From Haloterrigena salina JCM 13891 (lineage in GTDB: Archaea > Halobacteriota > Halobacteria > Halobacteriales > Natrialbaceae): a stretch of DNA of 55,236 bases. The notes below the pieces were generated by a model, which saw only the letters and a list, made by a program, of their open reading frames with translations, was not told the DNA's origin and made no database searches. The position numbers and the translations under genes were made by a program. Below, piece after piece: positions 36,187-45,196 of the stretch. The DNA is taken from the NCBI RefSeq assembly GCF_000337495.1, contig NZ_AOIS01000003.1:1-55236 (forward strand), read 5' to 3'. How positions within the stretch are numbered: position 1 is the first letter of the stretch; every line of letters begins with the position of its first letter.

Positions 36187-36615
36187 GGGTACCTTCCCGA
36201 TTTCGTCGAACGCGCGTACGATGTCGAGCTCCAGCCGTGGCAGCGGGCGTACGTGAACACCGCGCTGCTCAACCACGCCGTCGGGATGCTCGGTCCGTAC
36301 GACGACGTCTGGTGGTGGGACCACCTCACGCACGCCCACTCCTCGTCGATTCTGGGCGGGGTGATTTGCGCCGCCAGCCGTCGGCGGGGACGCGATCCAG
36401 GCCCGCAGGTCGTCGCCGCCGTCGTCTGTCTTGGCCTCGTCTGGGAGTTCGTCGAGTACGCCGTTCACACCGCGGCGAACCGTCTCGGGTTCGAGCCGGT
36501 ACTCGTCACGTACGGCCCGAAGGACACCGCCCTCGACATCGTCTTCGACCTGGTCGGCGCGTTGCTCGTACTCGCGTTCGGAGACCGCATCTTCGACGCG
36601 TTCGAGGACGTCGAG
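36187..36615 (+). pseudogene. Fragment of a DUF2238-like membrane protein
   Basis: The frame gives LPDFVERAYDVELQPWQRAY, then GMLGPYDDVWWWDHLTHAHS, a helix VVAAVVCLGLVWEFVEYAVH, and ALDIVFDLVGALLVLAFGDR. These match the second half of haloarchaeal DUF2238/YjdF-type membrane proteins (conserved WWWDxxTH and WE residues). The N-terminal helices are missing, with no good start before the conserved part; a GTG at 36253 would begin inside it. After FEDVEYV the frame runs on into non-coding sequence over the next gene. Both ends appear lost, although translation from the GTG cannot be excluded. Confidence 0.5.
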
Positions 36616-36743
36616 TACGTCTTTCCCCCGTTCCTCTCTTCCTCTCCTTCTCGACCTCTCCCTCGAGACGATCGACCCTTCGATGGGCCGACGACATCCG
36701 ACGAACCGCGCGTTAGACCACAGGAGACGCCTCGGCGAGCCGA

Positions 36744-37628
36744 TCACGACGAACGCACCACGAACAGTACGGGGACGTCGACTATCCGCAGGAGCGTCGA
36801 GGTGATGCTTCCGAGGATTCGGCGACCGAGGCCCGACCGGCTGCGGGCGCCCATCACGAGCAGGTCGATATCGGCCTCGACGACGTACTCGCGAACGCCG
36901 GCCGGGACGCCGTCGAAGGACGTCGTCCGGACGACCGCGGTCGTGACGGCCGGCGCCGCGTCCCCGATCTCCGCCGCCGCGTCCTCGACGATCTCCTCGC
37001 CGTCCGCCTCGAGTCGTTCGACGAACTCCTCCCGTAGCCCGCCCGCGGCGAACGCGCCGCCCGCGGCCTGCAGATCGACCACGTTCAGCACGTGGACCGT
37101 CGACCCGTACCGCTGTGCGATCGCGGCGCCGTGCCGGGCGGCGGCGGTCGCGCGTTCGCTTCCGCCCGTCGGAACCAGCAGGTCGGAGTAGTCGGTCACC
37201 GCGTCCGACGCCCCCTTCGGGACGACGAAGACGGGGACATCGCTTCGATGGAGGAGCCGCTCCGTGACGCCGCCGAGGAGTCGCTTTCCGAGCCTCGTGA
37301 GCCCCTGTCTGCCGACGACGATCAGGTCCGCGTCCCGGTCGGAAGCGAACGCAACGATTTGATCCGCGGGCTTTCCCTCGGCCAGTTCCGTCGTTACGGA
37401 CCGGTCGAAATCGGACGCGAGCGCCTCGATCTCCTCGAGCACCGCTTCACCCTGTTCTCGCAGACGAGCCGTTTCGCCGCCGGGGCTCGCGACCCGCAGC
37501 GCCTTCGACTCTACGACGTAGACGACGTCGACGGCCGCGTCGAAGATGCGCGCGAACTCGAGTCCGCGCTCCGCCGCTCGTGCGGCCTCGTCGCTTCCGT
37601 CGACCGCGATGAGTATCCGGTCGTACAT
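36744..37628 (-). CDS. Tandem-domain universal stress protein
   Basis: This 294-residue protein consists of two Usp domains. Domain 1 (1-143) begins MYDRILIAVDGSDEAARAAE and ends with IVVGRQGLTRLGKRLLGGVT. Domain 2 (about 148-294) begins YSDLLVPTGGSERATAAARH and ends LVMGARSRSGLGRRILGSIT. Both keep G-x2-G-x9-G-type nucleotide loops, so an intramolecular dimer binding ATP is likely. The TGGSE start of domain 2 replaces the usual D-G-S. It lies in the Usp cluster, followed by a small membrane protein's gene upstream on the same strand. Confidence 0.9.
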   Translation of the reverse strand: MYDRILIAVDGSDEAARAAERGLEFARIFDAAVDVVYVVESKALRVASPGGETARLREQGEAVLEEIEALASDFDRSVTTELAEGKPADQIVAFASDRDADLIVVGRQGLTRLGKRLLGGVTERLLHRSDVPVFVVPKGASDAVTDYSDLLVPTGGSERATAAARHGAAIAQRYGSTVHVLNVVDLQAAGGAFAAGGLREEFVERLEADGEEIVEDAAAEIGDAAPAVTTAVVRTTSFDGVPAGVREYVVEADIDLLVMGARSRSGLGRRILGSITSTLLRIVDVPVLFVVRSS

Positions 37629-37685
37629 GGCCCGACGTTCGACGCCGACGGTCTTCGTTCTTTGCGGCTGGTCGAACCGACTACG

Positions 37686-37958
37686 CTACGGCCGGACGGG
37701 GAGCTCGGCTCGTCCGTTCGTCCGCATGACCGCTCGATTTCGCTCCGGCCACGCCAGGAGACGCTCCCGGAGCGGCTCGCCGGTTTCGGTCTCCGGATCG
37801 TAGTCGACGAGCGCTGCAGTCGCCGTCAGGAGGATCCACCCGCCGTAGCCGAGAAAGACCGTTACCGGCGCGAAGACGACGATCGGAACGACGACCCGTA
37901 CGAGCCGCTCGCTGAACGAGGGATCGGCGGTGGTATGGCTGTCTGGTGACGAGACCAT
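37686..37958 (-). CDS. Small membrane protein
   Basis: This 90-residue protein has two adjacent hydrophobic segments (VVVPIVVFAPVTVFLGYGGW and ILLTATAALV, about 23-55) and hydrophilic ends. No family is recognised. It lies 57 bases upstream of the tandem Usp gene on the same strand, so they may be co-transcribed and functionally linked to stress response. Confidence 0.6.
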   Translation of the reverse strand: MVSSPDSHTTADPSFSERLVRVVVPIVVFAPVTVFLGYGGWILLTATAALVDYDPETETGEPLRERLLAWPERNRAVMRTNGRAELPVRP

Positions 37959-38160
37959 ATTCGAACGTCCGGCCTAGGAGATATTCAAACCAAAGGTGAC
38001 CGAACCCCAACATGAACCGGCGCGATCCGTTCAGAGGCGAGTAGCGACGTGACTCCTCGCCTCCCGGTCAAGTAGCCCTTCTGGACGGAGACGCGTACTC
38101 GTTTCCGCCCCTGTTTCCACGGGGAGTAGGTTTAAGTCCTGTCTGCTGTATCAATGATAC

Positions 38161-38604
38161 ATGGGATTAGAAACGGTCGTTCTCGTCTGTAAACCCGGTG
38201 ACGAAGGATTAGGGTCGAAACTCGCGGAGACGGTCGTCGATATTGCAAAGCCGGCGAACGCCCGCGTGGAAGTCGCACAGGTGTTCACGGACGACGAGTA
38301 CGAGAACACCACGACGAGTCTCGGTCTCGACGACGAACCCGAGATCGCACCCGAACGGATCGCAGCCCAACACGGAACGTTTCGGACCATCGTCGATCGG
38401 TTCGACTCCGAGGGGCTCGAGTACGACGTGAGTACCTCCATCGGGCCGCACGCGGACACCATCGTCGACCTCGCCGCCGACGCGGATCTCCTTGTCATCG
38501 CCGGCGACAAGCGGTCGCCGGCCGGAAAAGCGATCTTCGGGTCGACAACTCAGGAGGTACTGCTCTCGGCCCCCTGTCCGGTGGTGTTCGTCCGGCGGGA
38601 GTGA
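38161..38604 (+). CDS. Universal stress protein (UspA family), divergent
   Basis: This 147-residue Usp-fold protein begins MGLETVVLVCKPGDEGLGSK rather than the usual D-G-S start. It keeps the C-terminal loop LLVIAGDKRSPAGKAIFGST followed by TQEVLLSAPCPVVFVRRE. This resembles the copy at 16.4 kb, which has GGRKRSPVGKALFGS. A TTTAAG box lies about 30 bases before the ATG, consistent with a leaderless transcript. Confidence 0.88.
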   Translation: MGLETVVLVCKPGDEGLGSKLAETVVDIAKPANARVEVAQVFTDDEYENTTTSLGLDDEPEIAPERIAAQHGTFRTIVDRFDSEGLEYDVSTSIGPHADTIVDLAADADLLVIAGDKRSPAGKAIFGSTTQEVLLSAPCPVVFVRRE

Positions 38605-39338
38605 GCCCGAAGCGGCATCCCGGAATCCCCGCCTCGAGTGTGAGGGGTATCCACGAACTGTCGCAAGCTGATCGAGAATGCGAAAATATGGCTCCTGTAT
38701 CATACCACCTGTCTCCTTGAATCTCTTTTTCAGATACTGTTATAGATAATGACGATATGTTCTATCGGAGTGCGAAACTGTACTCTAGTGAGGCGTCGAT
38801 CGATAGTCGATACTCGTCCCAATTATCGTCCCTCTTGATTCGTCTAGAAGGCGGAATACCGTTCACTACAGTCAGTTCGCGCAGTCAAATCACTGCGAAG
38901 AACGCTCGTACTGTCTGAGTCAGTCACTCTTCGTTCGTGCTTTGGATATCTTCCGTGAACTGTGACAGCACGACCAGTTTAAGTTCGTCTACTCGACGAC
39001 ACCAGATACGGTGGTCGGCGGTTATCCGGTCGTAGATCCGTCCTGAGGAAATATATGTTCGGACGATATTTGAGCTATATTTAGACGGACAGATCGGTAC
39101 ACCTCTCGGATACGAATCTGTTCTAGAATGCGAAGATACCAACGGCGATGACTCAGTCCAAGTCGGTCGGGAGTACACGAACGGAACAGTTCTGAAGGCG
39201 ACGGAACACGGTGACGGCTACTGGTCTCGAGACGATAGTCGCCCTTCCGCGAACGCCACCCGTTCGATCTGGAGACAAGAGCTGCTATTCTCGGCTACTG
39301 TCGCTCATCTTCCGTCTGAAAGCGGTAACGAGGACGCT
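38605..39338. other. Gene-poor stretch
   Basis: About 730 bases have lower GC than their surroundings. One plus-strand frame (about 39075-39280) reads like protein for 60 residues (LECEDTNGDDSVQVGREYTN) but has no start, no family and no clear end. It may be a gene remnant. No repeats or RNA genes were seen. Confidence 0.3.
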
Positions 39339-40667
39339 TCACGGCTGCGCTTCGGCGGCGCTCTCGCGGTACTCCTCGAGCGAGAGATCGATCTCCCTCG
39401 CCCGCTCGCGGATCGCGTCGGCGTCGACTGACGTGACCTCGCCGTCGTCGACCAGCACGTTCCCGTCGACCATGGTAAAGACCACGTCGTCGCCGTGAGC
39501 ACCGAAGACGAGGTGCGAGAGCGGGTCGTGCAGCGGCGTGGCGCGGGTCAGGTCCGTATCGAGGCCGACGACGTCCGCGCGCCACCCCTCGCGGAGCGCG
39601 CCGAGACGGTTGAATCCCGCGGCCTTCGCGCCGTTGATCGTCGCCATCTCGAAGAGCGTCGCTGCCGGCGCGGCGACCGGGTCGAGGGTGTCGACCTTCT
39701 GCAGGAGGCTCCCCTGTCGCATCTCGGTGAACGGATCGAGCGTGTTGTTACACGGCGGACCGTCGTTACCCAGCGCGACGTTGATCCCGCGCTCTATGTA
39801 GTCGACGACCGGCGCGACGCCGCTGGCGAGTTTCATGTTCGAGGACGGGCAGTGCGTGACGTGGGTCCCCGTCTCGGCGAGTAGTTCGCGTTCGCTCTCG
39901 TCGGTCCAGACGCAGTGGGCGAGGACGACGTCCTCCCCGGTGAGTCCGACCTCGTCTAACCAGTGGATGTTCCGCATGCCGGTGTCCTCCTCGACGGTCT
40001 CGATCTCGCTGCGGTTCTCGCTGGCGTGGGTGTGAATCCGAACGCCGTCGTACTCGTCGGCGAGTTCGCGTGCCCCGCGCAAGCACGCCTCGCTACAGGA
40101 GACGGCGAAGCGCGGCGTCACCGCATACCGGATGCGGTCGTCGAACGCGCCGTGGTACTCCTCGATCAGTTCCCTGCTCTCGGCGAGAGCCTCGTCGGTG
40201 TCCTCGAGCAGGCCGTCGGGCGAGCGCTGATCCATCAACACCTTCCCGAGCACGCCGCGGATGCCGATCTCGCCGGCCGCCTCGAACGCGCGCTCGGCGT
40301 GGTTGACCGAAAGGTGGTCGACGCAGGTCGTCGTCCCGCTCTCGATCATCTCGAGGTAGCCCAACTTCGCCGCGATCTCCATCTCCTCGGGCGAGAGCGA
40401 TGCCTCCATCGGGAGGACGTACTCGAAGAGCCACTCGAGCAACTCGGAGTCGTCGGCGATCCCGCGGCCGAGGCTCTGGACGGAGTGGAGGTGTCCGCCG
40501 ACCAGCCCCGGCATGAGGATGTCGTAGCGTCGTTCCTCGCGGTCCGGATACCGGTCGCGGAGGTCGTCGCGGCGACCGACGGCGTCGATGCGCGACCCGT
40601 CGACGACGACGGCTCCGTTCTCGATGACGGTTTTAGAGTCGGCGATGACCGTTCCCGAGAGTAGCAT
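39339..40667 (-). CDS. Amidohydrolase, 5'-deoxyadenosine/S-adenosylhomocysteine deaminase-like
   Basis: This 442-residue metal-dependent hydrolase has the ATZ/TRZ-type motifs: MPGLVGGHLHSVQSLGRGI (H-x-H, residues about 60-62), RIHTHASENRSEI with metal His, VVLAHCVWTD, and VALGNDGPPCNNTLDPF with the catalytic Asp. This subgroup deaminates adenosine-type nucleosides, S-adenosylhomocysteine or related purines. A guanine deaminase or chlorohydrolase-type relative is also possible. The C-terminus (PLHDPLSHLVFGAHGDDVVF) is typical. The start is set at MLLSGTVIADS, which begins the beta-sandwich of the composite domain. Confidence 0.88.
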   Translation of the reverse strand: MLLSGTVIADSKTVIENGAVVVDGSRIDAVGRRDDLRDRYPDREERRYDILMPGLVGGHLHSVQSLGRGIADDSELLEWLFEYVLPMEASLSPEEMEIAAKLGYLEMIESGTTTCVDHLSVNHAERAFEAAGEIGIRGVLGKVLMDQRSPDGLLEDTDEALAESRELIEEYHGAFDDRIRYAVTPRFAVSCSEACLRGARELADEYDGVRIHTHASENRSEIETVEEDTGMRNIHWLDEVGLTGEDVVLAHCVWTDESERELLAETGTHVTHCPSSNMKLASGVAPVVDYIERGINVALGNDGPPCNNTLDPFTEMRQGSLLQKVDTLDPVAAPAATLFEMATINGAKAAGFNRLGALREGWRADVVGLDTDLTRATPLHDPLSHLVFGAHGDDVVFTMVDGNVLVDDGEVTSVDADAIRERAREIDLSLEEYRESAAEAQP

Positions 40668-40959
40668 ACCACGCGGGAATCCAGCCGCACGCACAAAACG
40701 ATTCGCATTCTGTCGGTTGCGATCAGCGGAATCCGACCCTACCTCCGTGGGCTGATCGAACGGTCACCTGTGACCGACTGGTCTCATGCACTCTCTCCCT
40801 CGGGAGTCACCTCTCACAATCACAGAATACTGCTGCAAATTACGTTATCAGTAGTGGTAATACTATTTCTTTATTCATAGTGATAGATAAAAACCGTCGA
40901 TACAGGTAGAGGAGATAACGAACATAAAGAATTAATATCTTTGACAAAATACGACGCCT

Positions 40960-41145
40960 ATGAACCAGACTGCGGAACGTCTCCAATATCACATCAAGGG
41001 TTCATTCATAGTCCTGCTCGTCCTCGCAGCCTTTCAGTACTGGCAGGGCAACCTCGATATTGGATTTCTAGTTGTAGTGGCAGCTGGTTACGTTGTTCTC
41101 AGGATGGCGTTTGATATTATTCAAGAACGATACACAAGCGCCTGA
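40960..41145 (+). CDS. Small two-helix membrane protein
   Basis: This 61-residue protein has two hydrophobic segments (FIVLLVLAAFQYW and DIGFLVVVAAGYVVLRMAFD) and short charged ends. It is preceded by an AT-rich promoter-like region. No family is recognised. It lies between the amidohydrolase and recombinase genes, with no obvious partner. Confidence 0.55.
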   Translation: MNQTAERLQYHIKGSFIVLLVLAAFQYWQGNLDIGFLVVVAAGYVVLRMAFDIIQERYTSA

Positions 41146-41261
41146 ACGCCGTTCCATTCGCACATGTACTTATCGAATCGTCCACCGCAGTTTCAGTCAT
41201 CGTTCTGAATAAAGAAGCCGCGTTACTATCTACTGTTATTTACTTTCTATTACATGCGGCG

Positions 41262-42398
41262 TCAGGTATCGTGTTCGGTGAACGCCTCACCGGCGTCTTC
41301 GGCCATCTCTTTGGCTTCGATGTGCGAGTACGACTTGCGGACGACCTCCTCGCTGTTATCCAGCAGTCGAGCGGCGGCGGTGAACCCGCGCTGGCGAACC
41401 ATCACTTCGCCAGCGCCGCGGCGTCCGCCGTGCGGGGCGAGGTAGTCGTGCTTTCCCTCGAGTTCGAGATCGGCGCCCTCGCAGAGCCGGCGCATGATCC
41501 GGCGAGCGCCGTCGGTGTTGATGGAAGGAGGCGACAGGTCGCGTTCGCGCAGCGCGTCGAACACGTCGGTCTGTCCGGTGAGTTCGTCGACGAAGGGTTC
41601 GATTTCGTCGGTCGACCAGTCGTATTCGTCTCGTAACCCAGTACGAAGCGTCTCGTACAGCGAGGGGAGGTGAAACGTCGGAAATACCGGCCACTCGTCG
41701 CTCGCGGGATCGAGCAACCTTTTGTATCGCCGCATAGGGTTTACAGCCTGTTTCGTCAGCGATCGATCGGACCAGTCCTGCTTCTTGGCGAGGACGGTCA
41801 TTTTCTGGTCGTCGAGCGAGACGTCGCCCCACCGAAGGCCGTTCCGGCGATCATCCTTCGGGTCCGCGAAGATCTCCCCGCCACGAACGCCGGAGTAACA
41901 GAGGACGTAGACGAGCGCTCGATCGCGGAACTCCCGAATCGCGTCGAATCCCTTCTCGTCGGCGGCGTCGTGCGCTCGTTCGTCGACGTGTCGCGTGATC
42001 AGTAGTCGGTGTTCGTCGGTCCAGGCCTGCTGGTCGCCCGACCGACGGCCGTCGTTCTCCGGAAGCGGCTCCTTCGCGACGTTTCGCTGGGCATAGTTCG
42101 CCTCGAGGAGCCCCTCGCGGACGCACCAGCCGATGTAGGCGCTCACCTGCGCGTAGTAGGTCCGGATCGTCCCCGGCGCGAGGTCGCGAGCGGTGAGCTC
42201 CCGGGCGTACCGGCGAAACGTCCGTTCGTCGAGTTCGTCGAACGCCATGCCGGACTGGGCGTCCGCCTCGAGCCATTCGAGGAAATCCTCGACGCAGCGT
42301 TCGAGGTTTCGACGGTAGTTGCCGCTCCCTTCGCCGCCCTTCGACTTCGATCGAAGGAACGCCTCGAGCGGGTCGCCGACCGGCGTCGCCGCGTTCAC
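41262..42398 (-). CDS. Tyrosine-type site-specific recombinase (XerC/D-like)
   Basis: This 378-residue protein has an N-terminal SAM-like core-binding domain (about 1-120, including FRRYARELTARDLAPGTIRT) and a complete catalytic domain. Arg I is in CYSGVRGGEIF, HxxR is in LAPHGGRRGAG, and the nucleophile Tyr is in VRKSYSHIEA near the C-terminus. It should cut and rejoin DNA through a 3'-phosphotyrosine. No tRNA or duplicated attachment site is visible nearby and no prophage genes adjoin it, so it may be a chromosome-encoded recombinase rather than an active element's integrase. The promoter region just upstream is AT-rich. Confidence 0.9.
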   Translation of the reverse strand: MNAATPVGDPLEAFLRSKSKGGEGSGNYRRNLERCVEDFLEWLEADAQSGMAFDELDERTFRRYARELTARDLAPGTIRTYYAQVSAYIGWCVREGLLEANYAQRNVAKEPLPENDGRRSGDQQAWTDEHRLLITRHVDERAHDAADEKGFDAIREFRDRALVYVLCYSGVRGGEIFADPKDDRRNGLRWGDVSLDDQKMTVLAKKQDWSDRSLTKQAVNPMRRYKRLLDPASDEWPVFPTFHLPSLYETLRTGLRDEYDWSTDEIEPFVDELTGQTDVFDALRERDLSPPSINTDGARRIMRRLCEGADLELEGKHDYLAPHGGRRGAGEVMVRQRGFTAAARLLDNSEEVVRKSYSHIEAKEMAEDAGEAFTEHDT

Positions 42399-42755
42399 GC
42401 GCGATCACCGCCTCGTGTCCTGTTCCGGTGCATTTTTCGTGAGCAAGAGATGGATCGAATCCTTATAAATCTATACTAATCAAGTGTGTTCGCGGAAAGC
42501 AACGACTCCACTGCGACCGAACTTCGAGCGCAGCATACGATGGTCCTGAAGTATAAACCGCACACGGATTCATCCAACGTCACCGCTACGCGATCTAGCT
42601 ATCGTTGATCACGTTACGTTCGTCGGCGAACCAGTTCGATTGAACACATCGCACAAACGGTGAAACCGAGACCACGCCGATCGTCCGTCGACGCCTATCT
42701 ACCGGTGAGCGCGCTTCCACCCATCTGCTCGTCACGGTCCGTCTGACGAGTTTCC

Positions 42756-43236
42756 TTACCCTGTATTTTTCATCCCGGCCGCGATCCCTTTGACCGTCAG
42801 CCGGAGCGTCCGCTCCTCGATATCCGTGCGGTGGTTCCGGTCGAGCAGGTGCACCTGAAGCATGTTGAGCGGGTCGACGTAGGGGTTCCGTTGCTCCAGA
42901 TTCTCACCGAGCCAGTCGCGGGTGTGGAGGCGATCGCGTCGCCCGATTTCCGTGATCAGTTCGGTCGCCCGCTCGTACCTCCGCGAGGTTGATTAGTTCG
43001 AAGTAGGTCGTAAACGCCCGCGCGACGATCCGCTGATTGTGGGACGACAGTCCCTCGAGCTCCGTAATTAGCGGATCGCGAGTGTCGAGATCGCCCGAGC
43101 GGTAGTCGATCGCGGCCTGTCGGCACGATTCGACCGTCTCAAACGTCTCGCGAGACGTCTGCTCCTCGAGGATGGTCCCCAGGAGCGCGCCGAGTTCGCG
43201 AATATCGTGACTGATAAATTTATCTTGAATCACCAT
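42756..43236 (-). pseudogene. ppc: Phosphoenolpyruvate carboxylase reduced to its two ends
   Basis: The first 80 or so residues (VRELGALLGTILEEQTSRE-type start, QRIVARAFTTYFELINLAE) match the N-terminus of PEPC. The last 70, in another frame from about 42985, match its C-terminus (RNPYVDPLNMLQVHLLDRNH and LRLTVKGIAAGMKNTG to the TAA at 42756). PEPC is about 900 residues, so some 750 residues are missing, including all catalytic parts. The junction near 42980 also shifts the frame. It cannot fix bicarbonate onto PEP. Whether a second intact ppc exists elsewhere cannot be told here. Confidence 0.85.
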
Positions 43237-43435
43237 ATATCATGAATATAGCTTTGACGGTAAAATATCCCGCCGAGACAGAAGAGGTCATCGGTCCGTT
43301 CGCCGAGCCTGCGTCATCGGAGACGCCACGTCCCGAAACTCCGAGTGGTGCCGTCCGTTTCGAACGACCGGTTCCCCCGCCGGTCAGCGGACCGAAAGCG
43401 AATGCTTCTTGCGGCCGGCAGAGGTGGACAGCGAT

Positions 43436-44308
43436 GTGAACATCGGAATCGCGTTCGCCGGCCTGGCCGCGTTGCTCTACGGAACGTCCCTGTTCGTGAT
43501 GAAGCGGTGGTTCGCCGACTACTCCTCGCCGACCTTCCTCTCGATCACGTACGCGCTGTCGATGGTCCTCTACCTCCCGGTGGTCGTCGCCGCCGACGGC
43601 CCCTTCCTCCCTGCGTCGAACCGAGTCAGCGTTCTCGGAGTTATTTTCGCGGTCACGGCGTTGACGGCGCTCGCCATGGTGTTCCTGTTCCGGGCGCTCC
43701 GAATCGGGGAGGTCTCGTACGTCTCGCCGATCAGCAAGATCATCCCGGTGTTCGTCCTCCCGCTGGAAGTGGGGCTACTGCGACAACAACTCTCCGCGCT
43801 TCAGGTCGGAGGCGTGGTCGTCGCAACGATCGCGATCTACGTCGCCAACTGGGAGGGGACGACGCTCCTCGCCCCGATCAAACGGGCCAGTCGGTCCAGA
43901 CCGGCCCAACTGGCGCTGCTGTCGGCCGCGACGTTCGCGGTCGTCGACGTGGGCAAACGCGTGCTGATGCAGGAACTGGCCATCGCACCGACGACGTACG
44001 TTCCGTTGATGTTTTTCGGCATCGCCGGGTTGATGGGACCGCTGGCAATCCGCGCCCGATGGCCGGACGACTGGTGGCGCGACCTGACCTTTTTCGTCGT
44101 CACGGCGCTCGTCATCGCAGCTGGGAACCACGTCGTCCTGCTCTCCTTTCAGCGATTGCCGGCGAGCATCGTCTCCCCGGTGGTCAACGGACAGGCGATC
44201 GTCGCCGTGATCCTCGGTGCGATCTTCCTCGAAGAGTCCCACCTTCGGACGCGTCTCGCTGCGACCGGCTTGGCCGTCCTCGGTATCACGATGATCTCTC
44301 TCGGGTGA
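43436..44308 (+). CDS. EamA/DMT-superfamily transporter
   Basis: This 290-residue integral membrane protein has ten hydrophobic segments in two EamA repeats. The first starts NIGIAFAGLAALLYGTSLFV, the second SRPAQLALLSAATFAVVDVG. It ends AATGLAVLGITMISLG. EamA proteins export or import small metabolites such as amino acids or nucleotide sugars. GTG 43436 is preferred because it places the first helix at the N-terminus; in-frame TTG and GTG codons lie further upstream. It has no operon partner: the ppc remnant is on the opposite strand. Confidence 0.87.
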   Translation: MNIGIAFAGLAALLYGTSLFVMKRWFADYSSPTFLSITYALSMVLYLPVVVAADGPFLPASNRVSVLGVIFAVTALTALAMVFLFRALRIGEVSYVSPISKIIPVFVLPLEVGLLRQQLSALQVGGVVVATIAIYVANWEGTTLLAPIKRASRSRPAQLALLSAATFAVVDVGKRVLMQELAIAPTTYVPLMFFGIAGLMGPLAIRARWPDDWWRDLTFFVVTALVIAAGNHVVLLSFQRLPASIVSPVVNGQAIVAVILGAIFLEESHLRTRLAATGLAVLGITMISLG

Positions 44309-45196
44309 GCACGGATAGTCGTTCAGGAACGCTTGCTTTTGCGAGGGCGATTTCTGGCGACGGACGGAAGCGACTGGTACATCCCGTCGAATCGAATGCG
44401 TGCAGGCTGAACCCCGATGTTTGTGCCTCTCAAACGCGTGGACGAGGTCGGATACGATAGTTACGCGGATACGGACCAAACACCAGCAGGAGATTACGGC
44501 AGTACGGGTGTAAACATATACGGTGCCTACTGCTCCGTTTCGATCAGCAGGGAACAGGAGATCGGCTGACCGAGAATCAGCGTTACTCGCTTTATTCGGC
44601 TGTTTGTAACGATCAAACGCGGTTGGAGACCGGATCAAACCGAGAAATTGGAGCGAGAGCGACAGCTCTCCTCACTCGCGTACCGAAGACAGAAATCCGT
44701 TCACGGGAATCGAGAGGAGGACGCGAATACCGTTTTGTTCTCTCAAACGCCATCTTCTCACCCTATTCGAGATCATCTTTCAGTCAGAGAAGAATGAGGC
44801 CGACAGATATCAAAGTAATCCGCGACTCCAGGACGGTCGATTCGGTTGAACATCGAGATCTGATACCGCTCATACGATCAATACTCAGTGTTGGTATCGT
44901 AATTCGTTCTGCTTTCGGTATCTTACCGATACCATCGAAGTCAGCAGAGCATCGTTACAGAAGCACGACCGTAAAATTGGATTCAAACGGGGAGTAAACT
45001 CTGAGCGTTATCAGCTAGGGACGAGACGTGACGAATTCCGCTCGGTCGACTCGGTTAAGAGTCATGTACTCTCGATATCGGTCCTCGGCAACCGGACTCG
45101 CGAGAATTTGGGAGAGCAGATTCGAAGCGAGCGTTTCTCCCGGTAAAACGGAAGCATGGCGGAACATTTTACATACAAGTGTCCCATATAGTAGCT
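44309..45196. other. Gene-free stretch before the IclR gene
   Basis: About 890 bases hold no frame with haloarchaeal codon usage. It is less GC-rich than its neighbours. A TATA-like TTTTACATAC (about 45167-45176) lies 25 bases before the IclR ATG. Confidence 0.4.

Follow-up and report, generated by a model that had tools for sequence, protein, structure and literature searches.

Introduction

In Haloterrigena salina JCM 13891 the two ends of a phosphoenolpyruvate carboxylase (PEPC) gene, ppc, abut each other with nothing in between. The locus lies on contig C3 (NZ_AOIS01000003.1), of which the window analysed here covers 55,236 nucleotides. It raises a simple question: has the strain lost an anaplerotic enzyme, has it lost only a spare gene, or was the middle of an intact gene dropped during assembly? 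The initial annotation, drawn up from the letters alone, described a ppc reduced to N- and C-terminal stubs and offered two outcomes, i.e., loss of the enzyme or retention of another copy. PEPC as a family, plasmid-borne copies of its gene (annotated in sequence records) and deletion pseudogenes are known kinds. In searches of open-licence papers on haloarchaeal PEPC neither gain and loss of ppc, nor this particular remnant, nor a reciprocal loss were found.

Structure of the ppc remnant

On the minus strand, window positions 42756-43236 comprise the first 86 and the last 74 codons (stop counted) of a haloarchaeal ppc. The reference is the intact orthologue of a genus relative, G001:C4, which codes for 913 aa and lies in collinear surroundings. 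According to the alignment the N-terminal remnant (42979-43236, 258 nt) consists of the start codon and 85 codons. The C-terminal remnant (42756-42978) contributes 73 codons and the stop TAA (42756-42758); its translation of 73 residues terminates in GMKNTG. Both stretches match the PEPC profile PF00311 at opposite profile ends, i.e., profile positions 2-97 at 43212-42928 (E 5.7e-13) and positions 833-919 at 42989-42759 (E 1.8e-14), and both pass the family cut-off (48.6 and 54.1 bits vs. 22.4). This bears out the description as two stubs. The first estimates were about 80 N-terminal and 70 C-terminal residues, some 750 missing residues and a junction near 42980; they come close to the measured values of 86, 73, codons 87-840 and 42978/42979.

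The N and C parts are in different frames, i.e., the continuous reading frame of a working PEPC is absent. The TAHPTE motif (His138 in E. coli) and the FHGRGG motif, both of the catalytic core of PEPC, are absent as well; both are located within residues 87-840 of the G001 protein, the stretch that is gone in the window. What remains is a 110-aa open reading frame (42904-43236, minus strand), which consists of PEPC residues 1-86 and a tail of 24 codons beyond the junction, and which matches PF00311 with an E of 4.2e-14. With its start codon kept and 110 codons open it could be viewed as a functional short protein under selection, e.g., one that modulates the PEPC enzymes still present. However, the final 24 codons are out-of-frame C-part sequence, the junction is present in 1 of 125 family genomes, the window's own, and the divergence is too small for detecting selection. 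We regard such a protein as extremely improbable.

Other ppc copies in the same genome

The search for further ppc genes which the initial annotation had recommended was successful. Using the PF00311 profile, two were identified in the window's own genome (G000), one on C37 (lineage A) and one on C57 (lineage B). Each is divided by a single N into two halves, both of them open. Because the halves are in different frames a programmed or shared frameshift was first suspected. This was rejected: the single Ns (L027 position 9993 and L028 position 9658, corresponding to C37 and C57) are flanked by exact duplicated overlaps of 96 and 66 bases, i.e., they mark assembly gaps. From the open halves and the identical overlaps we infer that copies A and B are whole; the assembler could have swapped halves between them. 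Near the Ns both genes have an identical run of 87 bases in common, perhaps a product of gene conversion between paralogues.

Viewed from the window, in which nothing but the stub is visible, PEPC function might seem wholly lost and the stub the relic of a sole gene. At the level of sequence this is refuted by the two further genes, the larger halves of which score 724 and 712 bits, above the Pfam cut-off; we give the notion next to no credence. Since these genes exist in the same genome PEPC is, at this level, not lost: a spare copy is gone, not the enzyme. Of the two outcomes initially offered, retention of other copies stands and enzyme loss falls. This corrects the natural concern that an anaplerotic enzyme had disappeared from the strain.

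Evolution of ppc in Haloterrigena

In the 61 genomes searched (own, genus, family and order) PF00311 is matched at E 0.001 in 51, in 50 above the cut-off. Of the 52 rows in a DNA tree, 14 represent the six genomes of the genus and 38 are drawn from 44 named loci. Lineage A is present in all six genus genomes. Lineage B consists of G000_C57, G004_C3 and a remnant on C9 of G001 (support 100). Lineage C unites the stub, G001_C4 and G004_C2 (SH-aLRT 100), with the stub and G001_C4 as a pair (97). Within lineage A it is G001 and G004 which pair (97), without G000. The discordance of these pairings indicates that the copies have differing histories. The stub is a member of an extra ppc lineage borne on plasmids, pHTS220 in H. 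salifodinae and pHTUR01 in H. turkmenica. The plasmids of H. turkmenica DSM 5511 are pHTUR01 (698,495 bp) and a second one of 413,648 bp.

The window's own genome has kept A and B and deleted C; G001 has kept A and C and lost B; H. turkmenica (G004) has kept A, B and C unbroken. In the literature three PEPC entries are given for H. turkmenica (PMC3521007). The plasmid ppc of H. alkaliphila (G005) is located among Natrinema sequences in the tree and is split over two frames; the PLSDB table, which is incomplete, has no CDS for it. In the sole ppc found in G003 (C1, L040 8114-10876) the middle stretch is in another frame than both ends, as if two compensating frameshifts had occurred; these may be sequencing errors.

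Five of the six genomes of the genus possess extra copies, eight altogether; of these, four are unbroken, three are broken and one is open apart from a gap. As sources, lineages B and C would be the minimum, along with a copy in Haloterrigena sp. KLK7 (G002) that is close to the main copy of that genome, and the Natrinema-like copy in H. alkaliphila. Silenced are C in the window's genome, B in G001 and the plasmid copy in H. alkaliphila. The ppc spares of Haloterrigena might constitute a fluctuating set, mostly plasmid-borne and from several independent sources, silenced differently among close relatives, with fast gain and loss and an interchangeable dosage of an anaplerotic enzyme. We consider this general proposition an even bet.

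The deletion and its junction

Compared with G001:C4, 2261 bp are missing at 42978/42979, corresponding in the alignment to nt 260 through nt 2520 of the gene. Compared with G004:C2 of H. turkmenica DSM 5511, a gene shorter by 51 bp, the deletion accordingly amounts to 2210 bp. Either number leaves a remainder of 2 when divided by three. The deletion length is not a multiple of three; thus, the frameshift which had been reported at the junction is due to the deletion itself. At the junction no bases are inserted, within the gene there is no further rearrangement, and the flanks are collinear with the relative. Intact orthologues are present at the matching place, in G001:C4 and on pHTS220. The earlier proposal of one recombination event is supported in the sense of one deletion.

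Short direct repeats at the junction, suggested as a point of comparison with a relative, are weak at best. The ends have one exact base in common, surrounded by an imperfect match of 6/7. Among 20,000 random breakpoint pairs at least one exact base is shared in 46%, and 6/7 or better is reached in 1.9%. Measured against these pairs, end repeats as cause of the deletion found weak support.

The junction might be an assembly artefact, in which an intact gene was deprived of its middle as the reads of three similar ppc copies collapsed. The ppc family did trouble the assembler, the assembly breaking inside both other copies where these are identical. Yet the single base shared by the junction ends is far under the 66-96-base overlaps at those real breaks, and the window is devoid of any N. 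A chimera of A and B is contradicted by the stub ends, both of which belong to lineage C: DNA identity to G001:C4 is 95-96% for the C part and 89-90% for the N part, whereas it is at most 85% to the own A copy (85% and 83%) and at most 81% to the own B copy (81% and 80%). By these features a collapse at the junction appears unlikely, and we rate the artefact as a highly doubtful explanation.

Age of the deletion

The end branches of the stub (0.039) and of the intact G001_C4 (0.033) are close to each other, which indicates little decay of the stub. In the C part private changes are limited to three, and each is at a third position. In the N part 11 were counted, distributed as 2, 4 and 5 over codon positions 1, 2 and 3, i.e., not mainly third-position, which counts against the favoured reading. 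Eight of these 11 are within the first 30 nt (window 43207-43236) and are mainly toward A/T; at these sites G001, G004 and pHTS220 concur, against the window. The changes contribute to a perfect 12-bp palindrome, GATAAATTTATC, at 43213-43224. It was considered that the start region of the stub had been copied from elsewhere in the genome. This was dismissed: within three mismatches the 29-base pattern is present only at its own place, and in a search for another source the next best of 41 matches has an E of only 0.1. Because the stub branch resembles that of the intact G001_C4 and private changes are few, the deletion looks recent; the counts are too small to test selection.

Neighbourhood of the remnant

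Downstream of the stub a phage-integrase SAM-like protein is encoded (41262-42398, minus strand; PF13102, E 1.1e-5), which adjoins the intact ppc on pHTS220 too. Upstream and divergent is an EamA/DMT transporter (43409-44308, plus strand; PF00892), a neighbour of the intact ppc on both pHTS220 and pHTUR01. A relative of the integrase-like gene with 84% DNA identity is located in H. alkaliphila at L038 12474-13613, not far from the plasmid ppc that is broken there. A tRNA scan of the window detected no genes; therefore, the window has no tRNA attachment site for the adjoining integrase-like gene. An Rfam scan of the window gave no matches.

Collinearity with pHTS220 stops at window position 44764, 1.8 kb from the stub. 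Past this point the window has a gene for an IclR regulator as well as genes of fatty-acid oxidation, the latter matching other haloarchaeal plasmids. Contig C3 was considered as a plasmid because the orthologues are plasmid-borne; this was not adopted, and a Cdc6_C match is absent from C3.

Discussion

With a probability of roughly 0.93 we consider the locus to be a pseudogene, formed by a recent deletion in a spare ppc of the plasmid lineage C, in a Haloterrigena species. One event took out the 2261 bp, codons 87 to 840 with the catalytic core among them, and joined codon 86 out of frame to the C-terminal 73 codons, leaving the neighbours unmoved. The loss was presumably tolerated because PEPC activity would be provided by A and/or B. 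The break was probably joined by a route with little or no homology, and a single end-joining deletion would be the simplest account. Microhomology-mediated end joining (MMEJ), as reported for Ku-less haloarchaea, may have been used; the junction supports microhomology weakly. A Ku match was not detected in the strain's own genome. For Haloferax volcanii, a review states that a Ku homologue is absent and that breaks are repaired by MMEJ, with deletions as products (PMC7776575).

The locus presents, on a small scale, an example of how redundant genes of plasmid lineages are reciprocally lost in haloarchaea. Each loss among the three ppc lineages has a known place, and H. turkmenica with all three serves as reference.

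Among the closest known counterparts is the ppc on pHTS220 of H. salifodinae BOL5-1 (WP_204749663.1, NZ_CP069191.1). The gene order, integrase-like gene, ppc and DMT transporter, is that of window 36189-44764, at 93-95% identity. On pHTS220 the ppc CDS is intact, whereas in the window its middle is missing; the plasmid-encoded protein is 99.1% identical to the G001 protein. The ppc on pHTUR01 of H. turkmenica DSM 5511 (WP_012945432.1, NC_013744.1) is, like the stub, of lineage C and has the DMT transporter upstream. Unlike the stub it is intact, 51 bp shorter than that of G001, and its downstream neighbour is an IclR regulator instead of the integrase-like gene. The lineage-B ppc on C9 of G001 is likewise a spare that deletion has reduced to a remnant, and its surroundings are collinear with the B region of G000. 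It differs from the stub in lineage and in the extent of damage: several deletions and a stop have left only pieces of ppc. Its end branch of 0.29, compared with that of the stub, indicates an older decay in C9.
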